This document shows, piece after piece, positions 39,111 to 43,088 of a stretch of DNA of 64,000 nt. The stretch comes from Isoetes taiwanensis (lineage: Eukaryota; Streptophyta; Lycopodiopsida; Isoetales; Isoetaceae): assembly GCA_021234155.1 (NCBI GenBank), contig JAJEKV010000017.1:2032820-2096819 (forward strand). The letters are read 5' to 3'. The number at the start of each line of letters is the position of its first letter. Position 1 is the first letter of the stretch. The notes beneath the pieces were generated by a model. That model saw only the letters and a list, made by a program, of their open reading frames with translations. It was not told the DNA's origin and did no database searches. The position numbers and the translations under genes were made by a program.

Positions 39111-39312
39111 ATATATATGTTGTCATAGGACCCATCCTAGGAATGAGTATTAAAGATTGTAATGTTATACATGATGAGAGATGGGAAGAGTCCAATGCAT
39201 TCTTGTCAGAAGATGCATTAGAGGATATCTTTTATAATGTTGAATATGTACATTGATCGTCTCATAGACCTGGTGGTCTACAGACGTAATAAATACAACA
39301 TTTCATTTCATT
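39111..39312 (+). mobile_element. LINE copy G: extreme 3' end
   Basis: SEDALEDIFYNVEYVH followed by CTCATAGACCTGGTGGTCTA and TTTCATTTCATTT matches the end of LINE copy D (GEDTISDIFNTYISLMQYLL, TTAGACCTGATGGTCTTATA at 40182-40201). Only the last part of the ORF and the 3' end remain. It leads directly into the TC/AC array. Confidence 0.7.
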
Positions 39313-39454
39313 TCTCTCTCTCTCTCTCTCTCTCTCTCTCTCTCTCTCTCTCTCTCTCTCACACACACACACACACACACACACACACACACACACACAC
39401 ACACACACACACACACACACACACACACACACACACACACACACACACACACAC
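39313..39454. repeat. Compound microsatellite (TC)24(AC)47
   Basis: A perfect TC run at 39313-39360 switches to a perfect AC run at 39361-39454. It follows the 3' end of LINE copy G. Confidence 0.99.
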
Positions 39455-39562
39455 CTTAATGTAAGGTGGTGGTTGGGGGCGGGGCCCAACCAAGCAATGT
39501 AGTGTGGTGTGTGGTCACATGTCCAGGTTGGATGTTTGCCTAGTGGCGGACGTTAAAACTAC
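39455..39562 (+). mobile_element. Conserved short 3' segment between pyrimidine arrays, copy 1
   Basis: The segment contains CCAACCAAGCAATGTAGTGT, GGTCACATGTCCAGGTTGGA and GCCTAGTGGCGGACGTTAAA, then ACT and a CCCT array. Copy 2 at 40255-40326 has the same order with few changes; the end also appears at 17177. It may be the true 3' UTR of the LINE family, placed after an internal CT run, or an independent small retroposon using the same tail. Confidence 0.7.
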
Positions 39563-39610
39563 TCCCTCCCTCCCTCCCTCCCTCCCTCCCTCCCTCTCTC
39601 TCTCTCTCTC
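39563..39610. repeat. CCCT/CT microsatellite
   Basis: (TCCC)n passing into (TC)n, ending at the truncation point of LINE copy D. Confidence 0.98.
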
Positions 39611-40218
39611 ACTCCATGAAAGAAAGTGAGAGCAAGAGATGGTATGCAGATGCAGAGAAATGGGTGGAAACCAATATGGAGTACCGCATGTAGCAAAAGG
39701 CAAGTACAAAGATGCTAGATTATAAGAACGTTATGAATCCAAGACTAACACCAATGCCATATCTGTTGGAGAAAATATCAACGGTCAAGAGGCACAATAT
39801 TTGCAGGATCAGACTAAGCTCACATCATTTAGGAGTCACGGTTGGCAGATGGAGGAATATTCCCTGAGAAAACCGAACCTGCAAGATATAGAAGATGAGA
39901 CACATTTCATACTTTGTTGTTCGGCTTTCCAGAGGCTAAGGGATAAATTGTGCATAAGGACGACCTCATTAATAGATTTTTTTTACGCTGCCAGTGAAAC
40001 AAGTAGGTCAATACATAACAGAATCTTTGGAGATTCGAGAGATTTCGATAAAAAGTTACAAACACCTATTTGAAGAATTCGACAAAGACACACCAGAGGA
40101 GAACTATTGTTGCTCCATTCAGGGGAGGACACTATATCTGACATTTTCAATACGTACATTTCTCTTATGCAATATCTATTAGACCTGATGGTCTTATAGA
40201 TGGAAAAGTAAAAGTTTC
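39611..40218 (+). mobile_element. LINE copy D: C-terminal ORF2 and 3' end
   Basis: It starts after the TC array. Blocks are NVMNPRLTPMPYLLEKISTV (about 39730), RHNICRIRLSSHHLGVTVGR (about 39793), WRNIP...ENRTCKI with a stop, DETHFILCCSAFQRLRDKLC (about 39893), and the last residues ISDIFNTYISLMQ before TAGACCTGATGGTCTTATAG. This parallels copies B and C at the GRW/CCHC tail. Several stops. It ends in CT/CCCT at 40219. Confidence 0.88.
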
Positions 40219-40254
40219 TTCTCTCTCTCTCTCCCTCCCTCCCTCCCTCCCTCC
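40219..40254. repeat. CT/CCCT microsatellite
   Basis: (CT)n followed by (CCCT)n at the 3' end of LINE copy D. Confidence 0.98.
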
Positions 40255-40324
40255 AACCGAGCAATGTGGTGTGGTGTGGTCACATATCCAGTTGGATGCT
40301 GCCTAGTGGTGTGACATTAAAATA
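40255..40324 (+). mobile_element. Conserved short 3' segment, copy 2
   Basis: AACCGAGCAATGTGGTGTGG, TCACATATCCAGTTGGATGC and GCCTAGTGGTGTGACATTAA match copy 1 at 39455-39562 in order. It ends AAAATACT before the CTCCCT array. Confidence 0.7.
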
Positions 40325-40356
40325 CTCTCCCTCTCCCTCTCCCTCTCCCTCTCTCC
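40325..40356. repeat. CTCCCT microsatellite
   Basis: A hexanucleotide CTCCCT repeat (a compound of CT and CCCT) directly precedes the longest LINE copy. Confidence 0.97.
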
Positions 40357-43088
40357 AAAGGAAAGCAGGATAACAAAACAGAATAACAAAACAGTGAAAT
40401 GGGCGAAAGATAAGGCTGTTGTATCAGATTAGGAAAGCGCGGGAGGTCTGAAAATTGTCATCTGGAACATCAACAGACTGACAATTGATAAGACTTTCAG
40501 TATTCAGGGGCTTCTTACCGATATAGATATGATATGTTTTGTAGACTCCAAAGAGCATGACCTGTATGAGCTTCCGTAAAATTGAAGGATTTGAATTAAT
40601 ATATTCGTTAAAAACATGAAATTCGAGATGGAGATAATGGGAATGGAGGCGTGGCATGCTATGTGAGGCATGCTTGGGCTGATCGATACATGGTGTCAAG
40701 AAAGACGATACAACCAAGATATTTGGATAGAAATTACGAGGTTCTGAGAGGCTATATTACATGGCAATATGTTATTTCGCACCCGACATAAGCAAACATA
40801 CTGCTTCTGAGGCTTCTTGTGATGATCTTTTCTTTGATCCGGAGCGTGACATAATGAAATACCAAAGCAAAGGGATTGTAATTCTATCGAGAGACTTTAA
40901 TGGACGATACAAGCACATGGCAAAGCGCCAATTTTGTCGAGAGGATAATGATCCGAGATGGCTGGAAATGATGAATGAAGAAGAACTCCGCCTTAATGGG
41001 TGGAACAGAATTCAACAGACAAAATAGTCACCAAATCGCGCATAACCGCTTGCCGTCTTTGTGGCAGGCTAACTTATTGATATGTAATGGATTGAGCAGA
41101 TTTCCGTGCTCCTTTAAAACCACATGTAGAGCCCGTAGTACGCTTGACTATGTAATGATTTACTGGCGATGCATTGGACCGATCGTCTCCTTTGCAATAG
41201 GAGAAGAGCAAGTTGAATCGAGATCATAATCATTGTTGCTAACTTTACCGTAACAAGATCATGTAATCGAGATTATACCGGTAATAAAGAAAGGATTACA
41301 TATGAGGTATGGGCTGAAAGATACATATAAATCATGTGTTGAAGACAAACTTCAACGATATCGCTGGATAGAGATGTTGCCAAAGCAAGTAAACAAATCA
41401 CTGAAATTCTATTGGCCTCTGCAAATGAGATCTTTAGAGTCAGCCGGGCAGCTAAGGGTTTACCATGTAAATCATGGTTTGACAAAGAATGTAGAGATGC
41501 AAAATTTCAATGGAGGAAAGCAGACACAGAGCATAAAGATCATTTTAAGAAACAATATAAGAGAATAGTCAGGGACAAGAAGAGGAGATTTATCCGAAAA
41601 CGTCAAGAGGATCTATGTTTTAAATTTCTTGCTGAACCCAAATCATTTTGGACAGCCCTAAAACAAACTCGGAGGAAAGATCTACCTATTTCAGCCACCG
41701 CAATATGGGATCATGTAGATAGTTTGTATAATTGTGAACATGCAACAGCCCACGAGCCGCCGTCGGATCTCATAATTTCGCTTGACGATGTAGCGGAAGG
41801 CATAAAACATTTGGCAAATGGTAAGGCAAAGGATGTAGCAGGTGGCATGCTGCAGAGCATTTAAAATGGGCGGGCAAAGAAATTCATCTACATTATGAAA
41901 TCTGTTTACAACAAATTATGTCTCAAGGGATTCCAACAGATCGGCGGATAAAACAGAGTGGTCCCAATACATAAGAGCGGATCCTTATTGGAAGTGAATA
42001 ATTACAGGACAATTTTGGTTAGCGGCATTTTCTCAAAACTCATTGCAACTATTTTAGAAAAGAAGATCGCTGCATGGGCGTAGACCAACCATAAAAGAGC
42101 GTAATCACAAGCGTGGCTTTTGGGGCTAATAGGTCAACTTTGGATTAGTGCTCAAAGCGATTTTTGACATGGTAAAAGGTAAAAAAAACCTGTTTATGTA
42201 GCTTTTGTTGATTTCAAAAAGCTTTTGACAAGGTTCCACGTGCTCAATTGTGGGATCGCATGGAACAATTAAAGGTCCCGGGCGACTTGCAAGATGCGGT
42301 AAGTCTTCTTTATGAGAAGATCTTGGTTCAGCTCTCATGGCCTCTTTCTTTGGAAAACCAGATTTTTACGGAGAGAGCACAATTGGGGTTAAACAGGGGA
42401 TGTCCTATGTCCCCACATTATTCAGGCTATTTATTGATAGACTCGAAGAAGTGTTATGGAGAATTGCCCATGCGGTGTTGAAATTCATGGATATGTGCTT
42501 TTGCTTTTGATGTATCTTGACGATGTCGCGGATTTTTTCACGCCTAAGGAGCATTTGCAGAATCACTTGAATGGATTGGCGAGATTTTGTGATGACACAT
42601 GGATGCAAGTTAACTTGGAAAAGACGAATACTATGACGGTTGGAGCTATTGAGCAAGCATCCTTCACATATCAGGGAAATACGGTAAACCCATGTGATTC
42701 CTATAAATATTTGGGACCCGATATTCCACGTAAATCATAGATGGAACACTTGTGTCAATCGAGAATTGATGGCGGGCATAAGGCCCCTATGCTATGCAGT
42801 AGTATGTGTAGGAAAGCATTCCCTGCGGGTCCTAGCATCTTAAAATAAGATTTTTTGGGTCACTAGTACAGAGTGTGGTTTTATATGGGTGTGAAATTTG
42901 GGGACCAAGTTTGCCTCAAGGTCTTTGGGATGATGTGGAGCAAGTCCTGAAGAAATTCTTGAGATTAGAGTTAGGGGTAAAAGCCCAAACTCCATATCCC
43001 ATGATGTTGGCGAAAAGTGGGACCATGCCGTTAGAGGGCTTAAGCCATCTTAAGGTGTATCGATATCTTCGTAAATTGCTACAAATGG
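40357..43088 (+). mobile_element. LINE copy E: near full-length ORF2 remnant with endonuclease and RT
   Basis: This is the most complete family member. APE-type endonuclease: IVIWNINRL (about 40454), VILSRDFNGR (about 40880; SRDFN replaces GDFN), RARSTLDYVMI (about 41130), RDHNH (about 41219). Linker: KSWFDKECRDAKFQWRKADT (about 41475). RT: VAEGIKHLANGKAKD (about 41788), VVPIHKSG, RTILVSGIFSKL (about 42005), FKKAFDKVPRA (split by a frameshift, about 42215), YLDDVADF (about 42512; both aspartates kept), VNLEKTNTMTVG, YKYLGPDIP, then VVLYGCEIWGPSLP (about 42872) and KKFLRLELGVKAQTPYPMML (about 42950). Many stops and frameshifts show it is dead. It is cut off at 43088, where Ty3 sequence begins, so the GRW/CCHC tail is missing. 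ORF1 is not seen. Confidence 0.95.

Follow-up and report, generated by a model that had tools for sequence, protein, structure and literature searches.

A chain of truncated LINE copies joined by C/T microsatellites in Isoetes taiwanensis: candidate plant LINEs that may insert into pyrimidine arrays, their own tails included

Why would truncated copies of LINEs (long interspersed nuclear elements) follow one another on the same strand, each joined to the next by a pyrimidine microsatellite? The question is raised by a 64,000-nt stretch of contig JAJEKV010000017.1 from the plant Isoetes taiwanensis (the window; 40% GC). An initial annotation had described five units with intervening arrays at 39111-43088 and further arrays at 31531-31687 and 17911-17948, and had read them as a microsatellite-tailed or microsatellite-targeting LINE family. 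The units and the arrays are all present, and the overall reading is confirmed in part. We give a probability of roughly 0.55 to the view that the units are decayed copies from several lineages of pyrimidine-tailed LINEs, recognised through a 3' hairpin, that insert preferentially into C/T arrays, including the tails of earlier copies. The same view takes two short units resembling SINEs (short interspersed nuclear elements), S1 and S2, as non-autonomous partners of these LINEs.

C/T arrays and the 3' ends that run into them

Arrays were called in the window with Tandem Repeats Finder (TRF) at a score of 50 or more. Every C/T array of period 2-6 lies at a unit junction (6/6; called from 17911, 31531, 39313, 39562, 40223 and 40325), and the remaining arrays of period 1-6 are a (CA) run adjoining the one at 39313 and one poly(T). 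A seventh C/T array, built of TTCC (17195-17217) and absent from the TRF list, follows another hairpin-bearing 3' end. Pyrimidine runs of at least 20 nt number 13 on the plus strand, seven of them being the six TRF arrays and this TTCC array and the other six being T-rich. There are five purine runs of the same minimum length, including a GAA-type run (21646-21667) about 70 nt before LINE piece F, and these were not counted as C/T-type arrays. All units point one way, along the plus strand.

Each of the six 3' ends that can be recognised (an end near 17.15 kb and those of B, G, D, S1 and S2) runs into a C/T array, which bears out the claim that copies are microsatellite-tailed instead of ending in poly(A); where A, C and E stop, there is no sign of a 3' end. 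Tail units vary between copies, from TTCC and TC to CTCC and CTCTCC. Four ends (17.15 kb, G, S1 and S2) have in common GAC(G/A)T and, after it, an A-rich stretch, D and B being different, and the letters CC-NNNN-GG are found in all ends but that of B (5/6). These letters cap a stem in the predicted fold of four ends (17.15 kb, G, D and S1), but not in that of S2, and folding is clearly better than in shuffled sequences for three of the six (z = -2.68 for the 17.15-kb end, -3.00 for G and -4.45 for D). Comparing the stems of G and D, we read the letters at outer positions as changed with pairing kept, the outer arms being out of register in the automatic alignment. A search for the end motif followed by a C/T start, with up to three mismatches allowed, returned two matches in the window against 0.13 expected.

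An alignment of S1 with S2 that takes in their tails shows 83% identity across 116 columns. A profile built from the two found no third copy in the window, and a tRNA origin was discarded after ARAGORN reported 0 genes and Rfam 0 matches at the gathering score in the window. Outside this genome, the hairpin pattern matched 56 loci in IMG/VR, and since none of the 56 motif hits has a C/T run of at least 12 nt within 60 nt, these matches were taken as chance. One protein scan each of IMG/VR and of the GTDB genomes confirmed no relatives.

5' junctions, divergence and the growth of the chain

The initial annotation had truncated LINEs starting at the base after a pyrimidine array in four places. 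Homology begins 0 nt past the array in LINE C (31688), where the compared stretch itself began at the array edge, 2 nt past it in D (39613) and 7 nt past it in A (17956), so that three of these junctions stand to within a few nucleotides; at the fourth, in front of E, the first ~90 nt of the unit are not covered by any homologue. We compared these positions with 200,000 random placements of the seven array ends, drawn at uniform positions and set against five starts of our choosing. In none of the placements did at least three of the five starts fall within 10 nt 3' of an array end, and chance was rejected as the source of the array-adjacent 5' ends. The same figures bear on another account, in which a C/T tail is present on the RNA or arises by slippage, and a chain forms with no preference for C/T arrays. 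RTE elements of Lepidoptera make 3' microsatellites and their insertion is described, in the passages of PMC2887409 used here, as not sequence-specific, and the unlike tail units of the copies (TTCC, TC, CTCC, CTCTCC) would also suit tailing of this kind. Against this account stand the three of five homology-determined starts that lie at arrays, and we regard tailing without targeting as unlikely, although it is the strongest of the alternatives.

Preferential insertion into C/T arrays also draws on the position of C and G. The last position of C (about 32622) and the first of G (about 39146) are set by the ends of a 6.5-kb insertion. The inverted repeats of this insertion are 15 nt long with one mismatch, a score that was not reached by ~2,000 random pairs of stretches, the repeat having already been noticed before this scoring. 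The last FF motif that the units share lies 198 nt from the array in B, 232 nt in D and 263 nt in C plus G. We think it quite likely that C and G are one element split by the insertion, in which case (TC)n stands on both sides of that element and B-C/G-S1-D-S2-E form one chain of six. The stretch 32623-39145 has the ends CATTCC..GGATGGG and internal subrepeats, and is perhaps a DNA transposon. Immediately to its left lies a 28-nt palindrome with 12-nt perfect arms (32594-32621). A comparable break may separate A from B: the stop of A and the start of B are 18 nt apart in C coordinates, and B may continue A in one element broken by 11.7 kb. A candidate target-site duplication at this break, TGGAACTG (18875-18882 and 30566-30573), was rejected. 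By our reading it leaves a surplus of ~60 nt for the coding frame, and the union of A and B therefore stays unproven.

How far the units have diverged was assessed by 16 amino-acid comparisons among A, B, C, D, E, F and G. Identity is 39, 37 and 67% for A-E (the last over 12 codons), 63% for A-C, 53, 45 and 33% for C-B, 60% for C-E, 54% for B-E, 32 and 42% for C-D, 45% for B-D, 31% for F-E and 40% for F-A; the values of 62% for G-D (8 codons) and 33% for G-B (12 codons) are no better than those of shuffles. Over stretches of at least 30 codons, units of the chain are thus 32-63% identical in protein (11 comparisons). Third codon positions are the least alike in all 16 comparisons, as expected for lineages that diverged while coding. 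Because of the protein identities, it is most likely, as judged from these alignments, that the units belong to separate lineages, whose divergence took place while they were working elements and preceded insertion.

This divergence speaks against an origin of the chain by template jumping, in which one event would lay down a truncated first copy and then jump to the tail of another RNA, with no microsatellite target. Template jumping predicts the same joint of a tail followed by a truncated copy, and PMC2718515 cites it for the R2 enzyme. However, a single event would require RNAs of several lineages at once, and it fits poorly with the position of C/G between two (TC)n arrays; we consider it improbable. 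A further account is that LINE fragments once separate were brought together by recombination or deletion between microsatellites. Long pure arrays are recombinogenic, and E abuts a Ty3 fragment that begins within its own reverse transcriptase and, from about 43098, cuts E short. Against recombination, what lies to the right of the joints at C, D and A is coding sequence of truncated LINEs, which brings no array to the break; the units share a single orientation, and each of the six recognisable 3' ends is complete as far as its tail. We give this origin very little weight.

If insertion into arrays is the better explanation, chains of this kind could arise as follows. The reverse transcriptase would recognise the 3' hairpin of the RNA, whose U/C-rich 3' tail may pair, at a pyrimidine microsatellite, with the (GA)n-type strand once this is nicked and prime reverse transcription. 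Where copying is incomplete, a copy truncated at its 5' end would be left behind what remains of the array; a new array would form by slippage on the tail, and tails could in turn be re-used as targets. Since each new copy would supply a target at its own 3' end, chains would grow by successive insertion into tails. A wider and more tentative proposal, which we hold to be possible but doubtful, is that a non-L1 plant LINE group evolved, together with its own SINE, integration into pyrimidine microsatellites with self-made targets, so that distant members enter each other's tails, chains grow and C/T microsatellites spread genome-wide.

Several observations weigh against insertion into C/T arrays by hairpin-recognised elements, or against steps on which it depends. 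LINE B (30615) and piece F (21737) start away from arrays. All five starts were placed by us, and that of F is uncertain because E, its comparison sequence, changes frame upstream. No recognisable element has the array before A as its tail. S1, the worst case for the mechanism, has unlike flanks, with (AC)47 on its left and a CTCC tail on its right. No target-site duplications are discernible inside the arrays, and none was seen around the 6.5-kb insertion. Some folds are weak: the S1 region has a z of -1.43, S2 has one of -0.23 and forms no capped hairpin, and LINE B, also lacking a capped hairpin, has one of -1.19. A looser form of the end motif, with two mismatches, gives dozens of chance matches. 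The protein alignments of G to D and to B do not beat shuffles, and the codon-position result is partly built in, the alignments having been made on amino acids. Finally, the evidence comes from one locus only, so that the microsatellite targeting raised by the initial annotation, which the 5' junctions and the placement of C/G between two (TC)n arrays favour, is something we infer, whereas the tailing is seen directly at the 3' ends.

Table 1. Coordinates of the LINE units, short units, C/T arrays and the 6.5-kb insertion in the window
Feature	Positions	Strand	Remarks
3' end of a further member	17140-17217	+	Hairpin, A-rich stretch, (TTCC)n tail
(CT)(CCCT)n array	17911-17948	+	Immediately before LINE A; left flank not a recognisable element end
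LINE A	17949-18868	+	Reverse transcriptase part, frames broken; homology from 17956
LINE piece F	21737-22505	+	
LINE B	30606-31530	+	Post-reverse transcriptase region to CCHC and C-terminus; 3' end ACTTCACTTCATA
(TC)78 array	31531-31687	+	157 nt of pure TC; tail of B, start site of C
LINE C	31688-32622	+	5'-truncated at array edge; reaches through CCHC motif
6.5-kb insertion	32623-39145	.	T-rich; 14/15-nt inverted ends; between C and G
G	39146-39310	+	Last coding part and 3' hairpin; taken as 3' end of C
(TC)n(AC)47 array	39311-39454	+	After G; TC 39311-39360, AC 39360-39454
S1	39455-39561	+	Short SINE-like unit; resembles S2 from 39486 onwards; 9-bp 3' hairpin
(CTCC)n(CT)n array	39562-39610	+	Tail of S1, start site of D
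LINE D	39611-40214	+	C-terminal part, decayed CCHC region; 3' hairpin 40173-40202
(TC)n(CCCT)n array	40215-40254	+	Tail of D, start site of S2
S2	40255-40324	+	Second short unit; CC-TAGT-GG cap letters present, unused in predicted fold
(CTCTCC)n array	40325-40356	+	Tail of S2, start site of E
LINE E	40357-43088	+	APE-like motifs (from about 40448) to post-reverse transcriptase region

Affiliation of the LINEs

LINE A carries RVT_1 in two pieces, one above the Pfam cut-off and the other slightly below it. Against solved structures in the PDB, its reverse transcriptase scores 56.4 bits with R2 and 26.9 with L1 ORF2p, a shorter piece scores 31.8 bits with R2 versus 14.1 with L1, and a composite of A and C scores 22.3 bits with R2 and has no L1 match. 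On its minus strand the window also holds a LINE of L1 type that has a zf-RVT domain and gives the opposite order, with 35.9 bits for L1 and 18.9 for entry 8gh6, which we take to be R2Bm. R2 and L1 were the only LINE proteins matched in the PDB; jockey, I, RTE, Tx1 and Dualen gave no hits. Because the reverse transcriptase of LINE A is closer to R2 than to L1, the element is not an ordinary plant L1. The poly(A) tail of the L1 clade is likewise missing, all six recognisable ends lying in C/T arrays. The likeness to the Tx1 group suggested in the initial annotation found no support, the reverse transcriptase of A being nearer to R2 than to L1 in a comparison whose LINE matches were R2 and L1.

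The endonuclease of the group is probably of the APE type. LINE E shows APE motifs in order when inspected by eye; Pfam and PDB searches found no APE domain in it. Close to the C-terminus, B and C carry a CCHC-type motif, of which D retains the second half, and inspection by eye of the ~80 codons after the CCHC motif of B, which include one in-frame stop, found no RLE motif, no profile search having been made. A microsatellite tail, one of two traits considered for RTE membership, is present in these units.

Neighbouring features and comparison with known systems

Other features of the window lie outside the chain. Upstream of piece F, an open frame with CCHC-like cysteines (21267-21647) has no Pfam match and could be a LINE ORF1 or a gag. 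A Ty3-type element has a chromodomain match slightly under the Pfam cut-off. At 676-2286, repeats of 26/104 nt whose unit is TTTACCACTACACTTGCATGTCCAGG-like make up an array of ~1.6 kb. Complex direct repeats lie in 25721-29025; they reach 0.95 kb and share about 70-94% identity, and a 30-nt palindrome is repeated there at 25763 and 28782. A further palindrome with 15-nt perfect arms (GGGTTTGCCCCCCTA) lies at 57209-57241.

Insertion of LINEs into pyrimidine microsatellites has a precedent in animals, where Kibi, of the Tx1 group, inserts into (TC)n. A plant LINE targeting C/T microsatellites was not found in the titles and opening abstracts among the matches listed, a body of text to which the subscription literature, including the 2004 Kibi paper, mostly does not belong. 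In the passages used here, a review of land-plant elements names only L1 and RTE LINEs (PMC9033089), and PMC13295347 restricts LINEs that are site-specific and have an APE-like endonuclease to Tx1 and R1. If our interpretation is true, these plant LINEs, as both makers and users of C/T microsatellites, would be an additional site-preferring lineage and one source of plant CT/GA microsatellites, and would offer a direct test of tail-target co-evolution.

Among the closest parallels are Dong, named among insect elements (PMC2887409), and Togen of fish and some HERO families, described as microsatellite-specific (PMC4640811). As with Dong in (TAA)n, Togen in (TG)n and HERO, a LINE here stands beside or within a simple repeat, with an array on both sides in the case of C/G; unlike with Dong and Togen, several lineages are involved, the genome is that of a plant and the C/T tails vary in unit. 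RTE-clade LINEs (in Lepidoptera, Bov-B and plant RTE) share the short 3' end running into a microsatellite, but the units described here have C/T tails and a C-terminal CCHC motif, whereas the tails of plant RTE are described as (GTT)n (PMC9033089).

Chains are known from other elements. Zepp and ZeppL of green algae form nested clusters, mostly of 5'-truncated LINE 3' parts, by insertion into existing copies (PMC8226300). The present chain is likewise made of LINE parts that seem to have inserted into earlier copies, but Zepp is of the L1 clade, while here diverged lineages are joined by C/T arrays and the reverse transcriptase is unlike that of L1. Tandem R1 elements of Drosophila ribosomal DNA arise as a copy inserts into target sequence that remains next to an earlier one (PMC2718515). 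That target is a duplicated 28S site on the 5' side, whereas here it would be the microsatellite at the 3' tail. The stringent-type plant L1 ME1 shares a 3' hairpin with SINEs, with a UCU loop and a CGAG 3' flank (PMC3747384). As in ME1, the units of this chain have a hairpin near the 3' end, stem letters that change yet still pair and a SINE-like partner; they differ from it in the CC-NNNN-GG cap, in the GAC(G/A)T and A-rich flank of four of six ends and in the C/T tail.

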